Source: Phycisphaerales bacterium
GTDB taxonomy: Bacteria > Planctomycetota > Phycisphaerae > UBA1845
Length of the DNA stretch: 64,000 bases
Direction: 5' to 3'
NCBI GenBank assembly: GCA_020852275.1
Contig: JADZBE010000007.1
Location: 248,001 to 312,000, forward strand
The position numbers and the translations under genes were made by a program. Shown here in pieces: positions 1 to 31,261 of the stretch. Under the pieces are notes generated by a model, which worked only from the letters and a program-made list of their open reading frames with translations, did no database searches and was not told where the DNA came from. Within the stretch, counting starts at the first letter, position 1; each line of letters opens with the position of its first letter.

Positions 1-3620
<3,620 letters not shown>

Positions 3621-3688
3621 CTAGCCGCGGATTTCGGTCCGCGCGGGTCCTCGTGGGAGCATGCAGTTCCATCCGAATGCTTGCGCAG

Positions 3689-3705
3689 GGCGGGCTAGGC
3701 CCGCC
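3689..3705. repeat. Short palindrome, 7-bp arms, 3-nt loop
   Basis: GGCGGGC-TAG-GCCCGCC is a perfect inverted repeat in the secA to phosphoesterase spacer. It has the same arm-and-loop architecture as the palindromes listed elsewhere in this window. A transcript hairpin is possible, but there is no T-run, so it is not a classical terminator. Confidence 0.6.
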
Positions 3706-3752
3706 GCTCTCCGGGCGAACGGCCAGCGGATATCAGGAGGCCATGAATCAAC

Positions 3753-5375
3753 ATGAAGCACGTTGCAATCACGTTCATCCTTGCGGCGTTGTCGCTGCCG
3801 GGCAGTGCGTCCGCGTTTCACGACGGTCATGAGGAGAAGCGCCTTGCATCCGTTTCGCCGGCATCCGCACAAGCGCCCGCCGCCGCCGCGACCATGGCGC
3901 GCGGCTTCGTCTTTGACGACGCCAACGGTAATCGCAAGCGCGACGACGGCGAAGCCGGCGTGGCGGGCGTGCGCGTGTCCAACGGGCTGGACATCGTGTA
4001 CACGCGCGCGGACGGGGCCTACGAATTGCCCGTCGGCGACGACACGATCATTTTCATCAACAAGCCGACGGACTGGATGACCGCTCTCGACGAGCACCTG
4101 CTTCCGAAGTTCTACTACATCCACAAGCCCGCCGGCTCGCCGAAGCTCAAGTACGGCGGCGTCGCGCCGACCGGCCCGCTGCCCGCTTCCGTCGATTTCC
4201 CGCTGATCCGGCGCGCTGAGCAGTCGAAGTTCCGCGCCATCGTCTTTGGCGACACCCAGCCGCGCAATCAGCAGGAAATCGACTACATCGCGCACGACGT
4301 GGTCGAGCGCCTCGTCGGCACCGATGCCATCATGGGCGTCACGCTGGGGGACATCGTCTTCGACGACCTCTCGATCTTCGGCAGCCTCGCGGCCACCATC
4401 GGGCGGATCGGAATCCCCTGGTACAATGTCCTGGGCAACCACGACATGAACTACGACGCCGCGGATGACGCGCACTCCGACGAGACGTTCGAGCGGCATT
4501 TCGGCCCTTCGTACTACGCCTTCGACGTAGCCAAGGTGCACTTCGTCGTGCTGGACAATGTCGTGTGGATTCCGGCCGAGGGCAACAAGAAAGCGCACTA
4601 CGTCAGCGGTCTGGGAGAGCGGCAGTTGCAGTGGCTGGTCAATGACCTCAAGCTCGTCACACCGGATCACCTCGTCGTGCTGATGATGCACATCCCGCTG
4701 ATGGAGACGAAGGAGACGGCCTCGATCTTCAAGGAGCTTTCACGCTTTCCATTCACCCTCTCGCTGTCGGCGCACACGCACTATCAGGAGCACGTATTCT
4801 TCACCGACAAGCAGGGCTGGACGGGCGCGCAGCCGCACCATCACGCCAACTGCGCCACCGTCTGCGGAAGCTGGTGGGGGGGCGCGAAGGATGAAAACGG
4901 CATCCCCCACGCCACCATGTCCGACGGCGCGCCCAACGGCTGGAACGTACTTACGTTCGACGCCGCGAATTACTCGATCGAGTTCCGCGCCGCCCGCCGC
5001 CCGGAAGATTTTCAGATGAGCATCCACGCTCCGGAAGTCGTGAAGCTGGCCGACGCAGGCCGCACGCCGATCTTCGTCAACGTCTTTGCCGGCAGCGAGC
5101 GCAGCAAGGTCGAGATGCGTTTCAACGGGCAAGGCGACTGGGTCTCGCTTACGCGCACGCCCGGCGAGGATCCCACCTTTGTGGAAGCCGTGGCCGCCGA
5201 GGAGAAGATGCAGCCGCCCCCGGACCACAAGCTGCCCAAACCGACGAAGACGGAGCATCTGTGGCGAGGCCGATTGCCCGCCGCGGTGCCGGCCGGAACC
5301 CACATGATCGACGTTCGCGCGACGGACATGTTCGGCCACGTGTACACGGCGCAGCGCGTCATCCGGATCGAGTAA
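3753..5375 (+). CDS. Exported calcineurin-like metallophosphoesterase
   Basis: A 540-aa exported phosphoesterase. Residues 1-21 form a signal peptide. A beta-rich N-terminal domain of the Metallophos_N / SdrD-B-like type (FDDANGNRKRDDGEAGVAGV) follows at about 49-110. The dimetal catalytic domain shows GDTQ (about 165), GDIVFDD (about 199), GNHD (about 227), MMHIPL (about 311) and HTHYQEH (about 341). A Metallophos_C-like beta domain ends the protein. These motifs are the metal ligands of calcineurin-type phosphoesterases; the substrate (phosphodiester, phospholipid or teichoate-like) cannot be told from sequence. AGGAGG lies 12 nt before the chosen ATG. The gene is followed five bases later by a HAD hydrolase. 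Confidence 0.9.
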   Translation: MKHVAITFILAALSLPGSASAFHDGHEEKRLASVSPASAQAPAAAATMARGFVFDDANGNRKRDDGEAGVAGVRVSNGLDIVYTRADGAYELPVGDDTIIFINKPTDWMTALDEHLLPKFYYIHKPAGSPKLKYGGVAPTGPLPASVDFPLIRRAEQSKFRAIVFGDTQPRNQQEIDYIAHDVVERLVGTDAIMGVTLGDIVFDDLSIFGSLAATIGRIGIPWYNVLGNHDMNYDAADDAHSDETFERHFGPSYYAFDVAKVHFVVLDNVVWIPAEGNKKAHYVSGLGERQLQWLVNDLKLVTPDHLVVLMMHIPLMETKETASIFKELSRFPFTLSLSAHTHYQEHVFFTDKQGWTGAQPHHHANCATVCGSWWGGAKDENGIPHATMSDGAPNGWNVLTFDAANYSIEFRAARRPEDFQMSIHAPEVVKLADAGRTPIFVNVFAGSERSKVEMRFNGQGDWVSLTRTPGEDPTFVEAVAAEEKMQPPPDHKLPKPTKTEHLWRGRLPAAVPAGTHMIDVRATDMFGHVYTAQRVIRIE

Positions 5376-6691: not shown

Positions 6692-9600
6692 TCAGGCTCT
6701 GCGCAATCCGATGGTCAGCGAGCCTTCATCGAGCACGACATCGGCCCTGTAGGAATCTCCCCCCAGCGGGCGGTCCGTCAGTTCGACCCCCAGAGTCTCG
6801 CCGAGGATCCCTTCCGCCTGTGTCGCAGCGGCCTCGCGGATCTCGGCGCTGTCGGTTTGGAGCGACAGCACGACCCGGTCGGAGATGTCCAGCCCGCTTT
6901 CCTTGCGCAGGTTCTGGACCTGGCGGATGATGTCGCGCGCGATGCCTTCGTGGCGGAGTTCCTTCGTCACCTTGCGGCACAGCAGCACCGTCGTGCCCGC
7001 GTCGTCGGCGCCCGCCCATTCGTCGCCCCAGGACTTGCTCAGCGTCACGTCCGTCGGCTCCAGCGTCGCGGTGGCGTTGCCGACCTGGAGCATGAAGGGT
7101 CGCCCGGAGTCGAACGCCAGTGCCATGGCCTTGGCATCCGCCGTCTCGATGCCCTTCTTCACCTCCGCCGTCTGCTTGCCAAACTTGGCGCCGACGTACT
7201 TCATGTTCGCCGCCGCCGTCACGCGCAGCAGGTCCGCCGCCGAGTCGCGCAGCGACACCGCCTTGACGTTCAACTCCTCCAGCAGGTGATCGCGGAACAG
7301 CTCGGCCGCGCGACGTTTCGTCTCGTCCGCCGAGGCGACGATCAGCTCCGCCAGCGGCTGGCGCGTCTTCAGGTCGGCGCTCTTGCGCGCCGCGCGCCCC
7401 AGCGAGACGATCTTCAGCAGGGCGGCCACCTGCGCGGACAACTCGCGGTCAACCCGCGCCGCATCCGCTTGCGGAAACGGCGTGTGGTGAACGCTTTCCG
7501 CCGCGCCGGGTGTCTGCCGCGCGACGAGGTTCTGATACATCGTTTCCGACAGGAAGGGCATGATCGGCGCCAGCAGGCGATTCAGCGTCGTCAGCACTTC
7601 GTACAACGTCGCGTACGCCACCCGCTTGTCCGCGGGCCAGCCGTCGGCGTAGAAGCGCCTCCGCGAGCGGCGCACGTACCACGTGCTCAGGTCCTCGATG
7701 AACCGCCGCGCCTCGTTGCAGAACCGCAGCACGTCGAAACGCGAGTACGCCTCGTGCGCCACGCGGATCAGTTCCTGCAGGTCCGACAGGATCCACCGGT
7801 CCAGCAGCGTGCGCTCCTCCGCCTTCGCTGCGTGCTCGACCGGGTTAAACCCGTCCACGGACGCAAGGTCGCAGAAGAAGCGGTACACGTTCCACCACGG
7901 GATGATGACCTCGCGCCGCGCGTCGTCGCAGTGCTTGGGCCCGAAGAGCACGTTGCGTTCCGGCGGCGTGCTGGCGTACAGCCAGCGCATCACATCGACG
8001 CCGAACTTCTCCGCGGCGTCCTCGAACCAGATGGCGTTGCCCTCGGACTTGTGCATGGGCTTGCCGTTGTCGTCCAACACCAGCCCGTGACCCTTGAGCA
8101 CCTTGAAGGGCGAGCGCCCGGTCATCATCGTGCTGACGGTGAGCAGAGCGTAAAACCAGTTGCGGAACTGCCCGGGCAGCGCCTCGACCACGAAATCCGC
8201 CGGGAACCACTTCTCCCAATACGCGCGGTCACGGAAGAAGCCCATCGTCGAGAGTGACACGATGCTGGCATCGAGCCACGGATTGCCCACGTCGCGCACG
8301 CGGGAGACGTCTTCGGTGCCGCATTGCTCGCAGCGGATCTTCACCGCGTCCACCCACGGGCGGTGCGGCGACCTGCCCTCGAAATCCGCCCAGCCCTTCA
8401 CCGCGCGGGCCTGCAGCTCCTCGCGCCCGCCGATCACCTCGAAGTGCCCGCATCCGCGGCATTCCCAAATGGGCAGCGCCAGACCCCAGTAGCGCTTCTT
8501 CGAGATCATCCAGTCGCCCATGTTCCGCAGCCAGTCCAGCTCGCGGTCCAGACCCCACTCCGGGATCCACCGCGCCTGCCGCGCCGCGTTCATGATCTCC
8601 TCGCGCCAGCTCATGCTGATGAACCACTCGTCCACCAGCCGGTACACCAGCTCCTCCTTGCACCGCCAGCAGTGCGGGTAGCGGTGCATGTACTTCTCGC
8701 GCGCAAAGAGCAGCCCGCGCTCCTTCAGGCTCGCTACCACGTCGTCGGCCACCGCGTCAAAGCGCTTGCCGCCGAGAAAGCCGAAGTCCTGACGGAACGT
8801 GCCGTCCTCGTACAGCGGCGCGATGCGCGGCAGGCCCAGCGCTTTGCCGAGGTGGTAGTCCTCGCTGCCGCAGCCCGGCGCGATGTGGACGATGCCCGTG
8901 CCTTCCTTTTCCGTGACTTCCTCCCAGGCGACCACTTGATGAGCCGTCCGCGCCTCGGCCGCGCCGTCGAGTTGATCGAACGGACCGTCATACGTCAGCC
9001 CGACGAGCTGCGAGCCGGGGAACTCCTCGACGATTTCGAAGTCGCCGTTGTTCTTGAACATCGCGGCCAGCGCCATCAGCGGGGGGGCGCTCTTCTTCTC
9101 CTCGCCTTCGAGCGGCTGGCTGCGCGGGTTCGAGAAGTGCGGCTTGCCGAGAATGTAAAACTGGTCGCCTTGCCGCACCTTGACGTAGGTCATGTCGGGC
9201 TTGACCGCGGCGGCGACGTTGGACGAAAGCGTCCACGGCGTCGTGGTCCAAACCAGGAGCGACGTCGCAGGATGGAACGGTCCGGCGGACTCGCCAGGCC
9301 GGGGGTCGGCTCGAAGTGGGAACTTCACGAACACCGACGTGTGTCCGACTACGCGGTACCCCTCGCTGACCTCCATGTGCGACAGGCCCGTGCCGCAGCG
9401 GGCGCACCAGGGCATGACGTCCACGCCCTTGTAGATGAATCCGCGCTCGTGGCACTTCTTCAGAAACGCCCAGATGGCGTAGTTGTTCTCGTCCGACATC
9501 GTGTAGTACGAGTTCGCCCAGTCCATCCACTGCCCCAGCCGCTTGGACTGCTCCGTCTGGACGGCGGCGAACTTGCACGCGCGGGCCTTGCACGCCTCGA

Positions 9601-10171
9601 CGAACGTGTCGATGCCGTGCTGCTCGATGTCGCGCTTGGACTGGTAGCCGAACTCGCGCTCGACCTCGACCTCGACCCACAGCCCTTGGCAGTCGAACCC
9701 GTTCTGATAGCGCAGCTCATGGCCCCAACCGGCCGGGGCGGCGACATTCCGGGTCGGCACTGCTGCCGCGGTCGCGTTCGATGGCGCGGCCGTGCATGGG
9801 GCCGAAGCAGGCGCGTTTGCAGCCGAAGCAGGCGCGCTTGCAGCCGGAGCGGGCGCGTTTGCAGCGGAAGCGACGGCGTTTGCAGCGGAAGCGACGGCGT
9901 TTGCGGCGGCTGCGTCCGCAGGAGGGGAGGCCGGAGCCCACGGCGCGCAGGCGTGATACCGCTGATACAGATCCTTGTACGTCCGCCCCCATGCGTGATG
10001 CACGCCCATCGGGTTGTTGGCGGTGATCGGCCCGTCAAGGAACGACCACGGCGGCTTGCCGGCGCTCAACTCGCGCAGCCGCTCAAACGCCCGCGCCTTC
10101 TCCCATAACGCCAGCACCTCCCGCTCCAACGCGGGAAAGTCCATCTTCGGATCAACCTTCTCGAACGGCAT
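6692..10171 (-). CDS. ileS: Isoleucyl-tRNA synthetase with Ala-rich insertion
   Basis: 1,159-aa class I synthetase that charges tRNA-Ile. The HIGH region reads PMGVHHAWGRT, a variant seen in one bacterial IleRS branch. The KMSKS loop reads GKPMHKSEGN. CARC, CWRC, CRGC and CEQC pairs probably bind zinc. About 77 residues of Ala/Pro/Ser-rich low-complexity sequence (residues about 75-151, bases about 9719-9949) interrupt the catalytic domain between YKDLYQRY and LRYQNGFDCQG, where homologues have only a few residues; it is built on a 21-bp DNA repeat. The ATG at 10171 has a GGAG element 7 nt upstream and starts at the conserved MPFEKVDPKMDFP. The longer open frame to 10318 would overlap the neighbouring gene. 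Confidence 0.96.
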   Translation of the reverse strand: MPFEKVDPKMDFPALEREVLALWEKARAFERLRELSAGKPPWSFLDGPITANNPMGVHHAWGRTYKDLYQRYHACAPWAPASPPADAAAANAVASAANAVASAANAPAPAASAPASAANAPASAPCTAAPSNATAAAVPTRNVAAPAGWGHELRYQNGFDCQGLWVEVEVEREFGYQSKRDIEQHGIDTFVEACKARACKFAAVQTEQSKRLGQWMDWANSYYTMSDENNYAIWAFLKKCHERGFIYKGVDVMPWCARCGTGLSHMEVSEGYRVVGHTSVFVKFPLRADPRPGESAGPFHPATSLLVWTTTPWTLSSNVAAAVKPDMTYVKVRQGDQFYILGKPHFSNPRSQPLEGEEKKSAPPLMALAAMFKNNGDFEIVEEFPGSQLVGLTYDGPFDQLDGAAEARTAHQVVAWEEVTEKEGTGIVHIAPGCGSEDYHLGKALGLPRIAPLYEDGTFRQDFGFLGGKRFDAVADDVVASLKERGLLFAREKYMHRYPHCWRCKEELVYRLVDEWFISMSWREEIMNAARQARWIPEWGLDRELDWLRNMGDWMISKKRYWGLALPIWECRGCGHFEVIGGREELQARAVKGWADFEGRSPHRPWVDAVKIRCEQCGTEDVSRVRDVGNPWLDASIVSLSTMGFFRDRAYWEKWFPADFVVEALPGQFRNWFYALLTVSTMMTGRSPFKVLKGHGLVLDDNGKPMHKSEGNAIWFEDAAEKFGVDVMRWLYASTPPERNVLFGPKHCDDARREVIIPWWNVYRFFCDLASVDGFNPVEHAAKAEERTLLDRWILSDLQELIRVAHEAYSRFDVLRFCNEARRFIEDLSTWYVRRSRRRFYADGWPADKRVAYATLYEVLTTLNRLLAPIMPFLSETMYQNLVARQTPGAAESVHHTPFPQADAARVDRELSAQVAALLKIVSLGRAARKSADLKTRQPLAELIVASADETKRRAAELFRDHLLEELNVKAVSLRDSAADLLRVTAAANMKYVGAKFGKQTAEVKKGIETADAKAMALAFDSGRPFMLQVGNATATLEPTDVTLSKSWGDEWAGADDAGTTVLLCRKVTKELRHEGIARDIIRQVQNLRKESGLDISDRVVLSLQTDSAEIREAAATQAEGILGETLGVELTDRPLGGDSYRADVVLDEGSLTIGLRRA

Positions 10172-10314
10172 TCGAAGCTCCGTCCCAATTGTTTCCGGTC
10201 CACGTACGCCCGGGGGGCAACGCCCGAACATAACGTTTAGGACGGCCCGCGCATAGGACGGGCGATGTTGCGGGCGGTCGTTGTTCACGTGACTGAGGGG
10301 TGGCTTGCGCAGCG

Positions 10315-11010
10315 TCAATCAGGGTCGAACACCCAATCCCAGTTTCCGAATCTTGCCATCAAGTGCTCGCGTGGTTCACTGGGATGTCTCAGCTGCGGGT
10401 AGTAGTACAACGTGTCGCGGTCGATGAAGTTTCTTGGAAACCAGAACAAGACAAACCAACGCTCGCCGTTCCGCGACTTTTCCGGTGGCACGACAAAGTA
10501 AAAGTACTCGGGTTCGTTACCTGGGCCGCCCACGGGACTGTCGTCGATGTACTTCGGCGATAGATCCCGCAAGCTTTCCGGCGGCTCGCCATGCTCTTCC
10601 TCGTAGGCGTGGATGGCATCGATGACGGGATGAGGCTGCCGCGTCCACAGTTCAAACCAACGATGCCGCACGCCATCTTGAGCGCGACCGGATGCGATGT
10701 ACCCGGCGAGGTATATCGCAACAACCAGGACACCTGTCGTCGACCCTTCCCGAGTCCGGCGAACGGAAAGCCCGAGCAGAATCAACGGCGATGCTAGACA
10801 AAGAAAACCGGCAAACAGGAGAAGTCCGGTCCCGACAACAACCGTTGCCATTGACCCGGGCCAGGAGGCAAACGCGTCGCAAACCGGTCGAATAAACGGC
10901 AGCGCAAACGGAATGAGCGACGCCGCAATCAGACCCAGCGGCAATCTTCGCATGCGGCGAACCTGCGCGTGGGATTCGTCCACGGTGGAAACAGTGATTG
11001 AATTCATCAC
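10315..11010 (-). CDS. Hypothetical membrane protein with pilin-like C-terminal segment
   Basis: A 231-aa protein with three hydrophobic segments in the N-terminal half (LGLIAASLIPFALPF, ATVVVGTGLLLFAGFL, VLVVAIYLAGYIA). The soluble C-terminal half contains AIHAYEEEHGEPPESLRDLSPKYI, resembling the LPxxLxxLxPxYL segment found in type II pseudopilin-like proteins. No function is assigned. Base composition is lower in GC than the flanking genes, as for the toxin pair upstream of it, so it may belong to an acquired block. Two ATGs (11010 and 11007) are adjacent. Confidence 0.7.
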   Translation of the reverse strand: MMNSITVSTVDESHAQVRRMRRLPLGLIAASLIPFALPFIRPVCDAFASWPGSMATVVVGTGLLLFAGFLCLASPLILLGLSVRRTREGSTTGVLVVAIYLAGYIASGRAQDGVRHRWFELWTRQPHPVIDAIHAYEEEHGEPPESLRDLSPKYIDDSPVGGPGNEPEYFYFVVPPEKSRNGERWFVLFWFPRNFIDRDTLYYYPQLRHPSEPREHLMARFGNWDWVFDPD

Positions 11011-17862: not shown

Positions 17863-18093
17863 CACTCCAAGCCGCCGATTCTACAGACCGCGGTTAAACC
17901 TGACAGGATAGCATGAACAACGCCGTTTCGCACACCTCGACATGACAGGGAACAGGGGCGGCCAACACGCCCCAGTCCGTGAGTTGGCTTGCGGCCCTGC
18001 TGATCAGTCGGCAAGTGGGCCAGTTCGCGACGCTTCCGGTAGGTTGGCTCGCGCCCCAGCTCGCAACGCTGCTGATGGGTCGGTTCGCCGACG

Positions 18094-18730
18094 AGATCGT
18101 GGGTTCACTTCAGCCGACCGTCGAAGTGTTGCGGTTGCCACGGCTCGGATCCGCTTCAACCGACCGTCGGCGATCTGCGGTTGCCACGATTCGGGTCGGC
18201 TTCAGCCGACCGGTTCTTGCCGCCAACTTCAGTTGGTGGGGAACGGGGCGACCTCTTTCTGCTTTCAGCCGGCTTCAGCCGGGCTTGTCGAGGGTAGATG
18301 CACCGCCGGAGCTTCTTCGACCGGCTCGTGCGCCTCCAGCCTGACTTGAATAGTGCCTTGAGCATGGTGTTCGCGCTGGCGGCGGATGTACTCAGCGACC
18401 CAAGGCAGGTGTCACCACCCGAAACTGACTACGCCATAACCTCGCGGCCACTCCAAGGCCTTGTCGCGCAAGGCCCGGTGCGCAAGTTCCTCCGCGCGTC
18501 CGGGCAGCAGCGGTTGATCGTGCCTGGTAAGCCAGTTGAGGTGGATGAGAATCTCATGGAAGACGTGGCTGCGCATGCGGAGGCCCTCTCAGAAAGCCGG
18601 CTGAAGCCGGCTCCCTGTTGGATTTGCGGGACATCGTACCCACCAACTGAAGTTGGCGGCAAACACCGACCGGCTGAAGCCGGTCAACTGAAGCCGGTCA
18701 GGCAACAGTCCCCGGTGAAAGGCGACGCGG
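18094..18730. repeat. Interspersed GAAGCCGGCTGAAGCCGG-type palindromes
   Basis: Most of the spacer between the esterase and parA (17863-18851) is filled by variants of TTCAGCCGG / CCGGCTGAA and TTCAGTTGG / CCAACTGAA, in direct and inverted orientation. Examples are CCGGCTGAAGCCGGCTCC at about 18598 and CCACCAACTGAAGTTGG at about 18640. They flank both ends of a transposase relic, which is how REP elements sit around RAYT transposases. Apart from the relic no gene is visible in this spacer. Confidence 0.7.
18300..18576 (-). pseudogene. Relic IS200-like Y1 / REP-associated (RAYT-type) transposase
   Basis: From ATG 18576 the minus strand reads RSHVFHEILIHLNWLTRHDQ then PLLPGR, the N-terminus of Y1 (IS200-like, PF01797 type) transposases. 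It then jumps to EWPRGYGVVSFGW, meets TGA at 18412-18414, and continues in the same frame as LPWVAEYIRRQREHHAQGTI. The last segments are the hallmark GYG-SFS and YIxxQxEHH motifs, the latter probably with the catalytic tyrosine. The central segment that should carry the HUH metal-binding pair is missing. An internal deletion plus a nonsense codon make it inactive. It is embedded in palindromic repeats. Confidence 0.78.
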
Positions 18731-18733
18731 GTC

Positions 18734-18753
18734 ATTCCCGCGAAGGCGGGAAT
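18734..18753. repeat. ATTCCCGC-palindrome (dRS3-like)
   Basis: ATTCCCGC-GAAG-GCGGGAAT in a TCATT...CCAG context. The same 20-bp palindrome occurs at 53770-53789 with a GCAG loop. It resembles the widespread ATTCCC(N8)GGGAAT repeats known in Neisseria and other bacteria. Confidence 0.65.
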
Positions 18754-18851
18754 CCAGCCGGCGGCTGGCGAGGGGACGAGAATCCATGCGCTGCGTTGCC
18801 GCGCACTTGTCCAGACCGGGTGCGTGGCTCTGGGCACCGCACGCGACATCG

Positions 18852-20336
18852 CTAACCGATTTCCAGCACGGAGGCCGCCTCTCCGCAGTCGATCGGCTCG
18901 ACCTGCGGGTTGATCGTGTCGTGCGACCAGTGACCGTCGATCAACATGCGATAGCGGTAGCGCCCGGAGGTCAGGTGCAGCCGTGCTTCGAATTGCCCCT
19001 CGCCGACGCGCTGCATCGGCGTGGTTTGCGGCGACCAGTCGTTGAAATCACCGGCGATCTGCACGTTCGACGCGCCGGGAAACTGCCTGCGGAAGACTAC
19101 GACCTCACCTTCTTGCGCGACGCCGTAGATGTGCTCGATCCTCTTGCCGATGGCCTCGTGGTCCGCTTGCTCTACGGATGACGAGCCGCCTTGAAAGGTC
19201 GGAAGATCAAGGTTCAAGCTGCCTTCGCCCGCATCGGACATTCGATCCATGATCTGCGAGACGTCGGCTTCCGGTCCAGCCGCGCCAAGATCGACGCTGA
19301 TGCGATTCTCCCAGCGGGGTCGCTCACCAGACCCGCTCGCCGATCCGTCGGGGCCAAGCGAATCCCCCGTGCGCGAAGCTTCGGCGTCCGATTCATCGAA
19401 CCGCAGCACGTGCCGTCCGTTGATCGGCGTCGCCAGACCCTCGCCGGTGCCCATGCGCCCGCTGAGCAGCGACGCGGTGGTTGAAAGCAACCGGTCGGCA
19501 TCCGCGGCCAGACGCTGCGTCTGGAGCAAAATGCGCTCCATCGGCGAAGGCTCGGCTGCTTCGGAGAGAAGCTCCCGCGCGAGGCGCTGAAAGTCCCGCG
19601 CGCCGGAGCTGCTGGGCGCGAAGTCGCAGATCGGCTGCCCCAGCCCCGCGCCTTCGCGCAGCTTGGTGTTGAAGTTCAGAACGGTGTTGAACACCAGCGA
19701 GCCGAACCGGTTGCGCAGCTCGCTTAGCACCTCGCGCGCCTGCCGCGTCCGCACGTCGTACTGGTTCGGGAGAATCCGGATGCGCAGCGGCTTCGACGTG
19801 CGAAGCGTAAACGCGTTGATCGACTCGATCTGCCGCGTCAGCCCGTGCAGCGAGAAGTATCCCGTGTCCACGGGGATCACCACGACATGCGCCGCGCTCA
19901 GCGCGTTGCGCATCAGCGGGCCCCAGTGCGGCGGACAGTCCACGACGCAGTGATCGTAGTCTCCGGCGAAGCGCCCCATCGCGGCCGCCAACAACTCGTC
20001 CGCGTCCTCGCGGTCACGCACCGCCGGCTCGAACTCGGACAGGTCCGCGCGCGACGGCGCCAAGTCCAGGTGCGGCGCGATCTGCCATGTGATTTGTGAA
20101 AGTTGAACAGGCTCGGGCAGGGTCTGGTTCAGCAGCACGTCGCCGATGGACAGGTCGATCTGCTCCTCCGGGACGGCCAGCCCCACGGCGCAGTGCGCCT
20201 GTGGATCAAGGTCGATAAGAAGAACCCGTTGCCCCTGAGAGGCCAAGGTGGCGGCAAGATTGATGGCAACGGTCGTCTTCCCACAGCCGCCTTTTTGATT
20301 GGCGACGGTGATGACGCGCGGTTTGATGTACTCCAC
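18852..20336 (-). CDS. ParA-family ATPase with C-terminal glycogen-binding (CBM48/AMPK-like) domain
   Basis: A 494-aa fusion. Residues 1 to about 270 are a ParA/Soj ATPase: deviant Walker A NQKGGCGKTT with the signature lysine, LLIDLDPQAH, the DCPPHWGPL Walker B, and IPVDTGYFSLHG. About 140 residues of polar linker follow. Residues about 411-494 read VVVFRRQFPGASNVQIAGDF then NDWSPQTTPM, GRYRYRMLIDGHW and NPQVEP, the isoamylase-N / AMPK glycogen-binding fold, including the W, K/R and N positions typical of carbohydrate contacts. GTG start at 20336. No parB lies beside it, so a role in positioning a cargo other than the chromosome, possibly glycogen-linked, is conceivable but inferred. Confidence 0.88.
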   Translation of the reverse strand: MEYIKPRVITVANQKGGCGKTTVAINLAATLASQGQRVLLIDLDPQAHCAVGLAVPEEQIDLSIGDVLLNQTLPEPVQLSQITWQIAPHLDLAPSRADLSEFEPAVRDREDADELLAAAMGRFAGDYDHCVVDCPPHWGPLMRNALSAAHVVVIPVDTGYFSLHGLTRQIESINAFTLRTSKPLRIRILPNQYDVRTRQAREVLSELRNRFGSLVFNTVLNFNTKLREGAGLGQPICDFAPSSSGARDFQRLARELLSEAAEPSPMERILLQTQRLAADADRLLSTTASLLSGRMGTGEGLATPINGRHVLRFDESDAEASRTGDSLGPDGSASGSGERPRWENRISVDLGAAGPEADVSQIMDRMSDAGEGSLNLDLPTFQGGSSSVEQADHEAIGKRIEHIYGVAQEGEVVVFRRQFPGASNVQIAGDFNDWSPQTTPMQRVGEGQFEARLHLTSGRYRYRMLIDGHWSHDTINPQVEPIDCGEAASVLEIG

Positions 20337-20724: not shown

Positions 20725-22305
20725 ATGTCCAGAATCATTCTCCGAGCCGTCTTCGTTTGCGTCTTGTTGGCGCTGCTCAGCGCCGCCGCCATGACGGGTT
20801 GCGGACTGGGTTACCTCGACGCCGCCGACCTGCCCGCTGAAGTGGCCCTCCGCATCGAAAACGGCACGACGGAATACGTCCTCGTCAGCGTGACGCTGCC
20901 CGATGAGGAAACCGACACCACGACGGATACGGCCGGCACGGAGATGACCAACGACAGTGAAGCCGAATCGCCGGCGCCGCGCCCGGACAACGGCAACTCG
21001 TCATCCGAAGGCGCACCTCCCTCGACCTCCAAGCGGGCGCGGCTCGCCAAGGAATCCGTCATTCGCATCGCGCCGGGGGACTTCTCAACGGGCACGATCG
21101 CGTGCTCCGCCGTCATCACGGTCTCCGCCCAGGTCGGCGAGGAGACGCCCTCGACCGTTGTGTTCAGCGGAGTCGGAACCGGCACCGAGGGGTTTGATTC
21201 CGGCAGCGTCGGCATCACCGGCGAACGCCTGCTCTCCCCCGGCGCGGACTTCGACTGCAACGACACGGTCCTCGTTCAGATCACAGGCGCCGACGCGGGT
21301 CTGATTGTCACCGTTCCGGCAGGGCAGGCGCTGCCCGATCCCATCCAGCCGGGCACTGACAACGTCAACGATAATGAAGGCGACCCGGACGGTGAGGTCG
21401 TGACCACCGTCACCTTTCAGCTCCAGAACGCAACCGCCACGGCTGTGGACTTCACCCTCGCGGAGCAGGCCGCCGCCGACGGCTCCGAAGGGGACGGAGG
21501 CGACGGCGAAACCTCCACGGCGCCGCTGGTCATTCGGGTGCCCGCGGGCCAGTTCACCACGGGCGAGCTTCCCTGTGGGCCTACCTACGCAATCTCAGGC
21601 TCCATCACCGTCGTCGGGCAGCTCAAGCTCGTCTCCTTCGGCGGAGACGGCGCGGGAACCGTCGGCTTTGATGAAGGCAGCGTCGGCTCGCTCGGCGAGC
21701 GATATCTCGTCTTCGACACGCATTACAGCTGCGGCAGCATCATCGTGGCCACCTTGACGGATGACGGATCAGGGGTGGGAGACAGCACCTCTCTGGACCC
21801 GCTGGGGTCGGTCAGCGTGTACGGCACTGCGGAGGACGTCCCTCCACCCGAAACCGGAAACGTCAACGACAACAATGACGGTACCGAAAGCGTCACTCTC
21901 GCGATCACAAACTCAACCGAGAGCTACGTCCAGCTCCACCTGACTGCAGGCAACGGTTCCACCGTCAACTCTTCCTTCGACGTCCGCGTGCCGCCCGGCC
22001 GGACGACCACCGGCTTGGGCGATTGCGCCCAGCAGTACCTGATTGCGGCCTACCACCTGGAAGATCCGGACAGCGACGAAGAAGAGGGGTTCCACACCGT
22101 GGTGCTCCTCGGCGACGGCACCGGCGCGGAGGGATTTGACGGCAACAACGTCGGCACGGACAACACGCGGCTGCTCATTCTCGGCGAGCATTTCGAGTGC
22201 GCCCAGACCCTCGCGATCGAAATCACGGCGACGAACAACTTCATTGATCCGGACACCAGCGCGCTGGAATACGGCATTGGCGACGGCAGCGTGGCCGTGG
22301 AGTGA
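20725..22305 (+). CDS. Lipoprotein with three tandem beta-type domains
   Basis: A 526-aa lipoprotein. The signal sequence ends in AAAMTGC, making C26 the probable lipidated residue. Three homologous domains follow, at about residues 39-200, 226-365 and 388-515. Each opens with an N-(A/G)T-(A/E) strand, has a (P/R)(A/P)G-(D/Q/R)-(F/T)-(S/T)TG turn followed by C, then a G-x-GT-x-GFD-x(2-3)-VG loop, an ERLL/RYLV strand, and C near (D/H)(F/Y)-x-C. The two conserved cysteines per domain could pair. Acidic low-complexity spacers with NVNDN(N/E) separate the units and may bind calcium. No known family recognised. Confidence 0.75.
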   Translation: MSRIILRAVFVCVLLALLSAAAMTGCGLGYLDAADLPAEVALRIENGTTEYVLVSVTLPDEETDTTTDTAGTEMTNDSEAESPAPRPDNGNSSSEGAPPSTSKRARLAKESVIRIAPGDFSTGTIACSAVITVSAQVGEETPSTVVFSGVGTGTEGFDSGSVGITGERLLSPGADFDCNDTVLVQITGADAGLIVTVPAGQALPDPIQPGTDNVNDNEGDPDGEVVTTVTFQLQNATATAVDFTLAEQAAADGSEGDGGDGETSTAPLVIRVPAGQFTTGELPCGPTYAISGSITVVGQLKLVSFGGDGAGTVGFDEGSVGSLGERYLVFDTHYSCGSIIVATLTDDGSGVGDSTSLDPLGSVSVYGTAEDVPPPETGNVNDNNDGTESVTLAITNSTESYVQLHLTAGNGSTVNSSFDVRVPPGRTTTGLGDCAQQYLIAAYHLEDPDSDEEEGFHTVVLLGDGTGAEGFDGNNVGTDNTRLLILGEHFECAQTLAIEITATNNFIDPDTSALEYGIGDGSVAVE

Positions 22306-29703: not shown

Positions 29704-31098
29704 TCAGCCGCACAGTTCGTCGTAGATACGCATGAGGTCATCGCGGAAGCGCGCTGGACTGAAGCGCGTTTCGGCGACGCGGCGGGCATTCTCGCCACAG
29801 CGCGTGCGCAGGTCCGCGTCGCGGGCAAGGCATTCCATCGCGGCCGCGAGGGCGTGCGGCTCGCGCGGCCCCACGAGCAGGCCCGTGGCCCCGTGCTCAA
29901 CCACTTCGGGCATCGCGCCGACCCGCGTCGCCACGACCGCAAGTCCGTTGGCGAACGCCTCCAGCACGGTGATGGGCATGCCTTCGCTGTGACTGGGTTG
30001 AACCAGCACGTCGGCGCGAGCCAGCAGTCCCGCCTTCTGCCGGCCGCGGACCTCGCCGACGTAGTGCACGACGCGGGTCAGTTGACGGTCGGCGATCTTG
30101 CGGGCGAGCGTGCGGGCGTCCCCGGCGGAGCCCGGCGGACCGGCCAATATCAGCTCGAACGCGGCTCCGCGCGCTTGAAGCTGGACACAGGCGTCCAGTA
30201 GGTCGTCCACACCCTTCCATGCGTCCATCCGGGCGAGCATGAGGAACCCGCAGTCGGCGGCGGGCTGAGTGCCATTTGTGTGGCACGGGTTTTCAACCTG
30301 TGAGGTGTGGCACAGGTTTTCAACCTGTGAGGTGTGGCACAGGTTTTTGACCTGTGCAGCACCCGCGGAAAACTCTGCCGGATCATGCACAGGTTGGAAA
30401 CCTGTGCTACAGACCACCGGTTGGAAACCGGTGCCACACGGCACGGATTGGAAGCCGGGGGCACACTCCACCGGTTGGGAACCGGGTCCACTGACCAAAG
30501 GTTGGAAACCGGTGCCACGCTCGAGCTGCTTGAAACCGGTGCTTCGCTCGGCTGGAAGTTCAACCGCGTTCTCGACCACGCGGACGCTGGCGTGCGGCTC
30601 CGCGCTCAAGATCCAATCCGCCCAGCCCTGCGAGAGCGCGATCACGATGTCCGCGCGCCGCAGCACCCCGCGGATCAGCGACTGCCCCCACGCTTCGCAC
30701 TCGGCATGGAACTCATCAAACCGCGCCCCGTGCAGGTGGAGCACCACGCGGCACCCGAGCCGCCGCGCGAGCCAGGCATCCACCGCGCTGCGCCAGAACG
30801 ACATCCCGCTGCACGTGTGAATGTGCACCAGCCGAACGCCATTCTCCTTGATCGCGGTCTCGATGACCCGCCCCTGCAAGATGTGCCGCGCCACGCGGGC
30901 GAGCCACCGCTCGTGGTTGCTCTTACGCGAAGTGTCCGGCAGCGTCGTGACCGCATACCGCGCCGGCCAGTCGAGCCGCATCATCTGCCCGACCACGGCG
31001 CTCATCCCGCCGGTCATCGCCGGGTCCGGGCCGAGCACCAGCACCGCGCATCGCGTCTGAGTCGCCCGGGAATGAGTTGGTGCGAGAATGGCGGTCAT
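29704..31098 (-). CDS. GT4-family glycosyltransferase with repeat-derived linker
   Basis: A 464-aa GT-B fold glycosyltransferase, probably for extracellular glycan synthesis. The N-domain has the Gly-rich loop PAMTGGMSAVV and HIHTCSGMSFWRS. The C-domain has LARMDAWKGVDDLLDACVQL, AGPPGSAG and the EX7E motif in SHSEGMPITVLEAFANG. The interdomain linker is expanded by about 100 residues (TGFQPLVSGPG ... QVENLCHTSQVENPCHT) encoded by palindromes, an acceptable place because the linker is surface-exposed in this fold. ATG 31098 is preferred; the frame is open to 31170. Confidence 0.88.
   Translation of the reverse strand: MTAILAPTHSRATQTRCAVLVLGPDPAMTGGMSAVVGQMMRLDWPARYAVTTLPDTSRKSNHERWLARVARHILQGRVIETAIKENGVRLVHIHTCSGMSFWRSAVDAWLARRLGCRVVLHLHGARFDEFHAECEAWGQSLIRGVLRRADIVIALSQGWADWILSAEPHASVRVVENAVELPAERSTGFKQLERGTGFQPLVSGPGSQPVECAPGFQSVPCGTGFQPVVCSTGFQPVHDPAEFSAGAAQVKNLCHTSQVENLCHTSQVENPCHTNGTQPAADCGFLMLARMDAWKGVDDLLDACVQLQARGAAFELILAGPPGSAGDARTLARKIADRQLTRVVHYVGEVRGRQKAGLLARADVLVQPSHSEGMPITVLEAFANGLAVVATRVGAMPEVVEHGATGLLVGPREPHALAAAMECLARDADLRTRCGENARRVAETRFSPARFRDDLMRIYDELCG
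30280..30545. repeat. Array of CACAGGTT-NNN-AACCTGTG palindromes in the GT4 gene
   Basis: At least nine units. Examples are CACAGGTT-TTC-AACCTGTG (30311-30329), CACAGGTT-GGA-AACCTGTG (30388-30406) and CACCGGTT-GGA-AACCGGTG (30415-30433). Arms are 8 bp, loops 3 nt, units joined by G(T/A)GGTGTGG or C(T)ACAGAC-type spacers. Compensatory changes (AGG/CCT to CGG/CCG) keep pairing. Confidence 0.85.
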
Positions 31099-31261
31099 GG
31101 CGCTCACGCAAGGGAATGTCCGACGCATCGGACTCATCGGCGGATCCTGCGCTTGACTCCAACAACGCACCGCCGCGTCCCGCCCTGCGGTCTTTGTTTT
31201 CTCCGCGAGCTCCGCGCCTCTGCGTGAGAGATCACCGCGTGCGCGGTGCCGCGCGACACGG

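Follow-up and report, generated by a model that had tools for sequence, protein, structure and literature searches.

The window, a 64,000-nucleotide stretch of a Phycisphaerales contig, carries on its minus strand (18852..20336) a gene that begins with GTG, encodes 494 amino acids without internal stops, and is kept in relatives. Residues 5-262 of its product (19551..20324, minus) form a Soj-type ParA ATPase domain (AAA_31, 1.2e-41), which contains the deviant Walker A motif NQKGGCGKTT at residues 13-22 (20271..20300, minus); K15, G16, G17, G19, K20, and T21 of this motif are found in 114 of 115 homologues. A helix (residues 265-295) and a disordered polar linker of variable length among homologues, reaching to about residue 395, follow (19152..19550, minus; pLDDT below 50 at residues 304-390). 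The tail, residues 393-494 (18855..19160, minus), is a predicted CBM48/AMPK-beta-type glucan-binding domain (AMPK1_CBM, 1.6e-10; CBM_48, 4.6e-7). Pfam matches were judged against curated cut-offs, and all domain matches of the protein exceeded them: AAA_31 scored 143 bits (cut-off, 27) over residues 7-185, AMPK1_CBM 41.5 bits (cut-off, 26.8) over residues 421-480, and CBM_48 30.5 bits (cut-off, 22.4) over residues 405-467. Searching with the tail alone, phmmer returned AMPK beta-1 as the best solved structure (3e-9). An AlphaFold2 model built on a 39-row alignment gave pLDDT values above 90 for each of the ParA and CBM domains and below 50 for the linker (about residues 300-390). In a structure search, the ParA part of this model matched Soj structures at Z 36-39. 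Because the ParA domain filled that search, the CBM fold rests on the profiles and the AMPK match. The original prediction of a ParA domain joined to a CBM48 domain was therefore correct: this is a real fusion, with both domains above their curated cut-offs, both CBM profiles matching the tail, and the whole protein encoded by a single ORF in 91 loci.

One scan across genome contigs, together with searches of 60 genomes, yielded these 91 loci, which include some duplicates of one genome. The fusion was present in 47 of the 60 genomes, the window's own included; 11 were without it and 2 had fragments only. It occurs mainly in Phycisphaerae and also in Desulfobacterota, Myxococcota, Omnitrophota, and Auribacter. 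Lengths run from 339 to 632 amino acids, with the variation in the linker and both domains conserved. A search with the whole protein thus recovered co-conserved fusions whose tail is kept across phyla, the linker alone being variable. No plasmid record gave a full-length match or covered 80% of the protein, and the literature searched contained no description of a ParA-CBM48 or ParA-AMPK-CBM protein. The fusion is undescribed in that literature and widely conserved across phyla.

The ParA domain, which is nearest to Soj, has the conserved catalytic residues of this type of ATPase. Among 115 homologues, K15, K20, D42, D44, and D133 are invariant or nearly so: both lysines of the KGGxGKTT signature are found in 114, as well as in the window protein, and the aspartates at the catalytic Walker A' and the Walker B positions (D42, D44, and D133) are invariant. 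We take two aligned lysines of Helicobacter pylori Soj to be DNA contacts. The first corresponds to F222 in the window protein and is Phe in most homologues; the second corresponds to K225, which is K or R in 95 of 115, and position 227 is basic (K/R) in all 115. Compared with Soj/ParA of ParABS systems, the fusion has the same fold and catalytic residues and is likewise a small ParA without an N-terminal HTH, but it differs in its C-terminal CBM, the lack of an adjoining ParB, and the Phe at the first DNA-contact position.

We then read the sugar face of the CBM against AMPK, whose glucan contacts are W100, K126, W133, L146, and T148 (PMC2642990). The equivalents of W100, K126, and W133 in the window protein, W434, R463, and W470, are all present, and among the 91 fusion CBM domains W434 is kept in 89, K/R463 in 89, W470 in 86, and N476 in all. 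AMPK N150 is presumably a further glucan contact. At the L146, T148, and N150 equivalents, the window protein has C484, E486, and A488, so that these contacts are not kept, whereas F/Y, E, and N predominate in the family, with Asn at the N150-equivalent position in 77 of 91 domains. The change is shared by the window's genus, which has C or S at the L146 equivalent and A at the N150 equivalent; its loop reads EP[IV]D[CS]GE[AL]ASV in place of ETNEYGELNSV, and the aromatic residue and the Asn are gone. Judging from these substitutions, sugar binding may be weakened in this genus. The fusion domain thus belongs to the same sequence family as the AMPK beta glycogen-binding domain and the CBM48 of GlgB but is carried on a ParA rather than on an enzyme or kinase, and in the window's genus it no longer has the equivalents of L146 and N150. 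In one relative, a stand-alone AMPK-type CBM gene (L077, 6261-6548; 95 amino acids) lies 1.3 kb upstream of the fusion, and small CBM ORFs of this kind (106-127 amino acids) occur in relatives G046, G050, and G058.

In many relatives, the product of the next gene opens with a ParB-like peptide, (R)GL..I[AS]..FLS. The gene lies on the same strand as the fusion, overlapping it or up to about 150 bp away. Examples of the motif are LGRGLSDVSRFFLSG, RGISSIAHHFLSN, RPLSEISHLFLSS, DALADLFLG, and LADVLHYFLP; some Desulfobacterota-type partners have LGRGLxDVSxxFLS, and in many Phycisphaerales partners acidic instead of basic residues precede the motif. A regular expression for the motif matched 27 of 85 adjacent downstream ORFs versus 39 of 4,544 other ORFs, counts that describe the motif's location and give no unbiased p-value, as the expression was drawn up on the same sequences. 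The bodies behind the motif vary. The commonest is a FleN/FlhG-like domain (FleN, 5.7e-24; FlhG, Z 21 and rmsd 2.7 over 213 residues) with the P-loop mostly lost; the L063 and L068 partners retain a CbiA match, and small proteins follow the motif in L062, L069, and L072. The L080 partner has a MerR-type HTH, a coiled coil, a transmembrane segment, and RodZ_C. ParA/MinD activators are known as short N-terminal peptides grafted onto unrelated domains (PMC7993993), and ParB contacts ParA through such an N-terminal motif (PMC12462528). By analogy with these peptides, the partner is likely the ATPase activator of ParA-CBM.

Several other features accompany the module in relatives. The gene directly upstream of the fusion in L058, L066, and L067 begins with a similar short motif and has one transmembrane-like segment and, at its C terminus, a further domain that ends in VYIDxI or similar and that may resemble carbohydrate-binding sandwich domains. 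The fusion follows a 3-dehydroquinate-synthase-like gene in many Phycisphaerales loci (L035, L038-L041, L044-L047, and L059), and a MerR gene lies upstream in Myxococcota-type loci. In L080, the RodZ_C-bearing partner and a convergent glgB gene adjoin each other (1614-2969 and 3050-5269).

A third small domain belongs to the module. It has a gene of its own, located after that of the partner, in Myxococcota, in further deltaproteobacterial MAGs, and in Auribacter (e.g., L053, 6872-7444; L056, 10162-10806; L070, 10021-10671); in Phycisphaerae, it is fused to the partner. With hhalign, the separate third gene matched the C terminus of the Phycisphaerae partner at 88-94%, where controls stayed at or below 0.3%. 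The deltaproteobacterial partner matched the middle part of its Phycisphaerales counterpart at 96%. The three-part module is therefore common to several phyla and partly fused in Phycisphaerae. NCBIfam had no name for the partner gene or the third gene, and the third domain had no Pfam family; a single member gave one weak NucS_C match (0.29). A nuclease-like fold would be a guess.

The window's own family has the fusion without this neighbor. No ParB gene adjoins the window gene, as originally predicted, and ParB-family proteins are encoded on other contigs. In the genomes of the window's family, the partner gene is not adjacent to the fusion. A profile of the Phycisphaerae partner (A1), run against 60 relatives, recovered complete partners in no families but f2 and f3, where they lie beside the fusion; its matches in the window's family resemble FlhG. 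An 18-residue motif profile, for which there was no positive control, found no match in the window's genome. In the window organism, either the partner gene lies elsewhere, another protein takes this part, or there is no partner. The sole conserved neighbor of the fusion in this family is a divergent putative lipoprotein gene (20725..22305, plus), syntenic with it in 10 loci. The gap of about 1 kb downstream of the fusion (17866-18851) contains 46-nt direct repeats and a 44-nt inverted repeat that is 91% complementary.

On the tree, the adjacent-partner state changes about eleven times. For the CBM, about five changes of state are seen while ParA and partner remain, and CBM-less Phycisphaerales members nest among CBM-bearing ones. 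Thus, the core formed by ParA and partner can do without the CBM.

The original prediction also assigned a cargo, glycogen granules or glucan-bound machinery distributed at division, and named glycogen genes near fusion homologues as a point to check. A clear glycogen gene was found in only 1 of 121 neighborhoods searched (glgB, in L080). Six genomes that are 90-96% complete (G004, G012, G013, G014, G017, and G033) have the fusion but none of GT5, GlgB, GH57, GT35, and GH77; the CBM faces read in five of them (L101-L105) keep the W/R/W/N residues. Among 41 good-quality genomes, GT5 was present in 26 of the 34 with the fusion and in all 7 without it, showing no association (Fisher p 0.31). Conversely, family f4 has glycogen genes and no fusion. 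The fusion-bearing genomes without alpha-glucan enzymes and the single neighborhood with a glycogen gene argue that glycogen granules are not the general cargo, and sharing them out is probably not the general job of ParA-CBM. What stands of the original prediction is the conserved ParA-CBM fusion. Given a likely activator in relatives, it is reasonable to see a role in positioning or as a spatial switch, but the idea that glycogen is its general cargo is not supported. The options left are a different glycan, a function as sensor, and a protein ligand.

We propose a ParA/activator switch in which the CBM tethers or senses carbohydrate, in general other than stored glycogen; we consider this account evenly poised between right and wrong. 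With ATP bound, ParA-CBM would dimerize and stay on the nucleoid until a partner triggered ATP hydrolysis and so released it. In relatives, the trigger would be the immediately downstream product, with its first 25 or so residues resembling the ParA-binding peptide of ParB and its body variable. The CBM, on a flexible leash, would hold or sense carbohydrate (an oligo- or polyglucan or similar surface) during ATPase cycling, and the system would thereby place or gate a carbohydrate-linked cargo or activity. The dimer/nucleoid cycle, the activation by peptide, and the carbohydrate ligand are what we infer from the comparisons above. Somewhat short of an even chance, in our estimate, is the broader claim of a multi-phylum ParA class in which the ATPase bears the carbohydrate-binding domain, activation falls to a dead FlhG-like protein that starts with a ParB-type peptide and also has a third conserved domain, and the target is carbohydrate linked and not storage glycogen.

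One alternative is that the CBM is a sensor and not a tether, so that a soluble oligosaccharide would alter the ATPase as glycogen acts on AMPK, and the ParA switch would gate transcription, envelope growth, or similar. The AMPK domain regulates as well as targets (PMC2642990), and both the HTH, transmembrane, and RodZ_C parts of the L080 partner and the upstream MerR gene of Myxococcota-type loci would fit, but the long linker, predicted to be disordered, speaks against tight coupling; we regard this version as unlikely. We are also doubtful that the domain has ceased to bind sugar and become a protein-interaction domain with an E-set fold. The six fusion genomes in which no alpha-glucan enzymes were found, the altered contact loop of the window's genus, and the repeated loss of the CBM are in keeping with that idea, but the two tryptophans and the basic residue persist throughout the family along with the invariant N476, L101-L105 included.

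Apportioning of glycogen granules or glucan-bound enzymes to daughter cells by a ParA system appears quite improbable as an explanation of the family. The main glucan contacts are kept in the CBM48/AMPK-type domain, GlgB, GT35, and GH77 share contig 29 of the window's genome (a long way from the fusion gene), and glgB adjoins the module in L080. Such sharing would matter, as the polar glycogen aggregates of Escherichia coli csrA mutants exclude the chromosome (PMC4836754). Against it stand the six enzyme-free genomes, the fusion-free family f4, and the neighborhood count. Finally, a conventional chromosomal or plasmid ParA whose tail is irrelevant would suit the Soj-like domain but is hardly credible given the lack of an adjacent parB, the separate ParB-family genes elsewhere, the lack of a plasmid record spanning 80% of the protein, and a tail conserved across phyla.

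Returning to the proposed carbohydrate-linked switch, its working parts can be compared with known systems. In its way of working, the module of relatives would be like McdA/McdB, PomZ/PomX-PomY, and PpfA/TlpT, each of which pairs an orphan ParA with a partner other than ParB that starts with a short peptide. In those systems the partner contacts the cargo, whereas in ParA-CBM the ATPase bears a ligand-binding domain of its own, and the partner has an FlhG-like body. That body shares the fold of FlhG/FleN (Z 21, E 6e-24) but differs in its mostly lost P-loop, its N-terminal ParB-like peptide, and its gene's place beside ParA-CBM. BcsQ, a further ParA-like protein connected with a polysaccharide, binds the short partner BcsR and gave a structural match at Z 28, and the short motifs may also be alike; BcsQ, however, is without a CBM and located in cellulose operons. 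Known ParA systems read DNA or protein cargo via a partner. If our proposal is true, a glycan-binding ParA would add carbohydrate to the things that bacteria place or sense with ParA machinery. The partner family would offer a testable case of a ParA-activating peptide moved among unrelated bodies and also an example of an FlhG relative demoted to a partner.

Elsewhere in the window, we observed repeats inside coding regions. A glycosyltransferase-like ORF (29704-31170) contains, at 30278-30545, about nine in-frame 27-nt palindromic repeat units of the CACCGGTTGGAAACCGGTG type. These occur in two opposite orientations and so form an 88-nt inverted repeat within the coding region. An isoleucyl-tRNA-synthetase-like ORF (6692-10318) has an alanine-rich insertion of 21-nt tandem repeats at 9786-9911.
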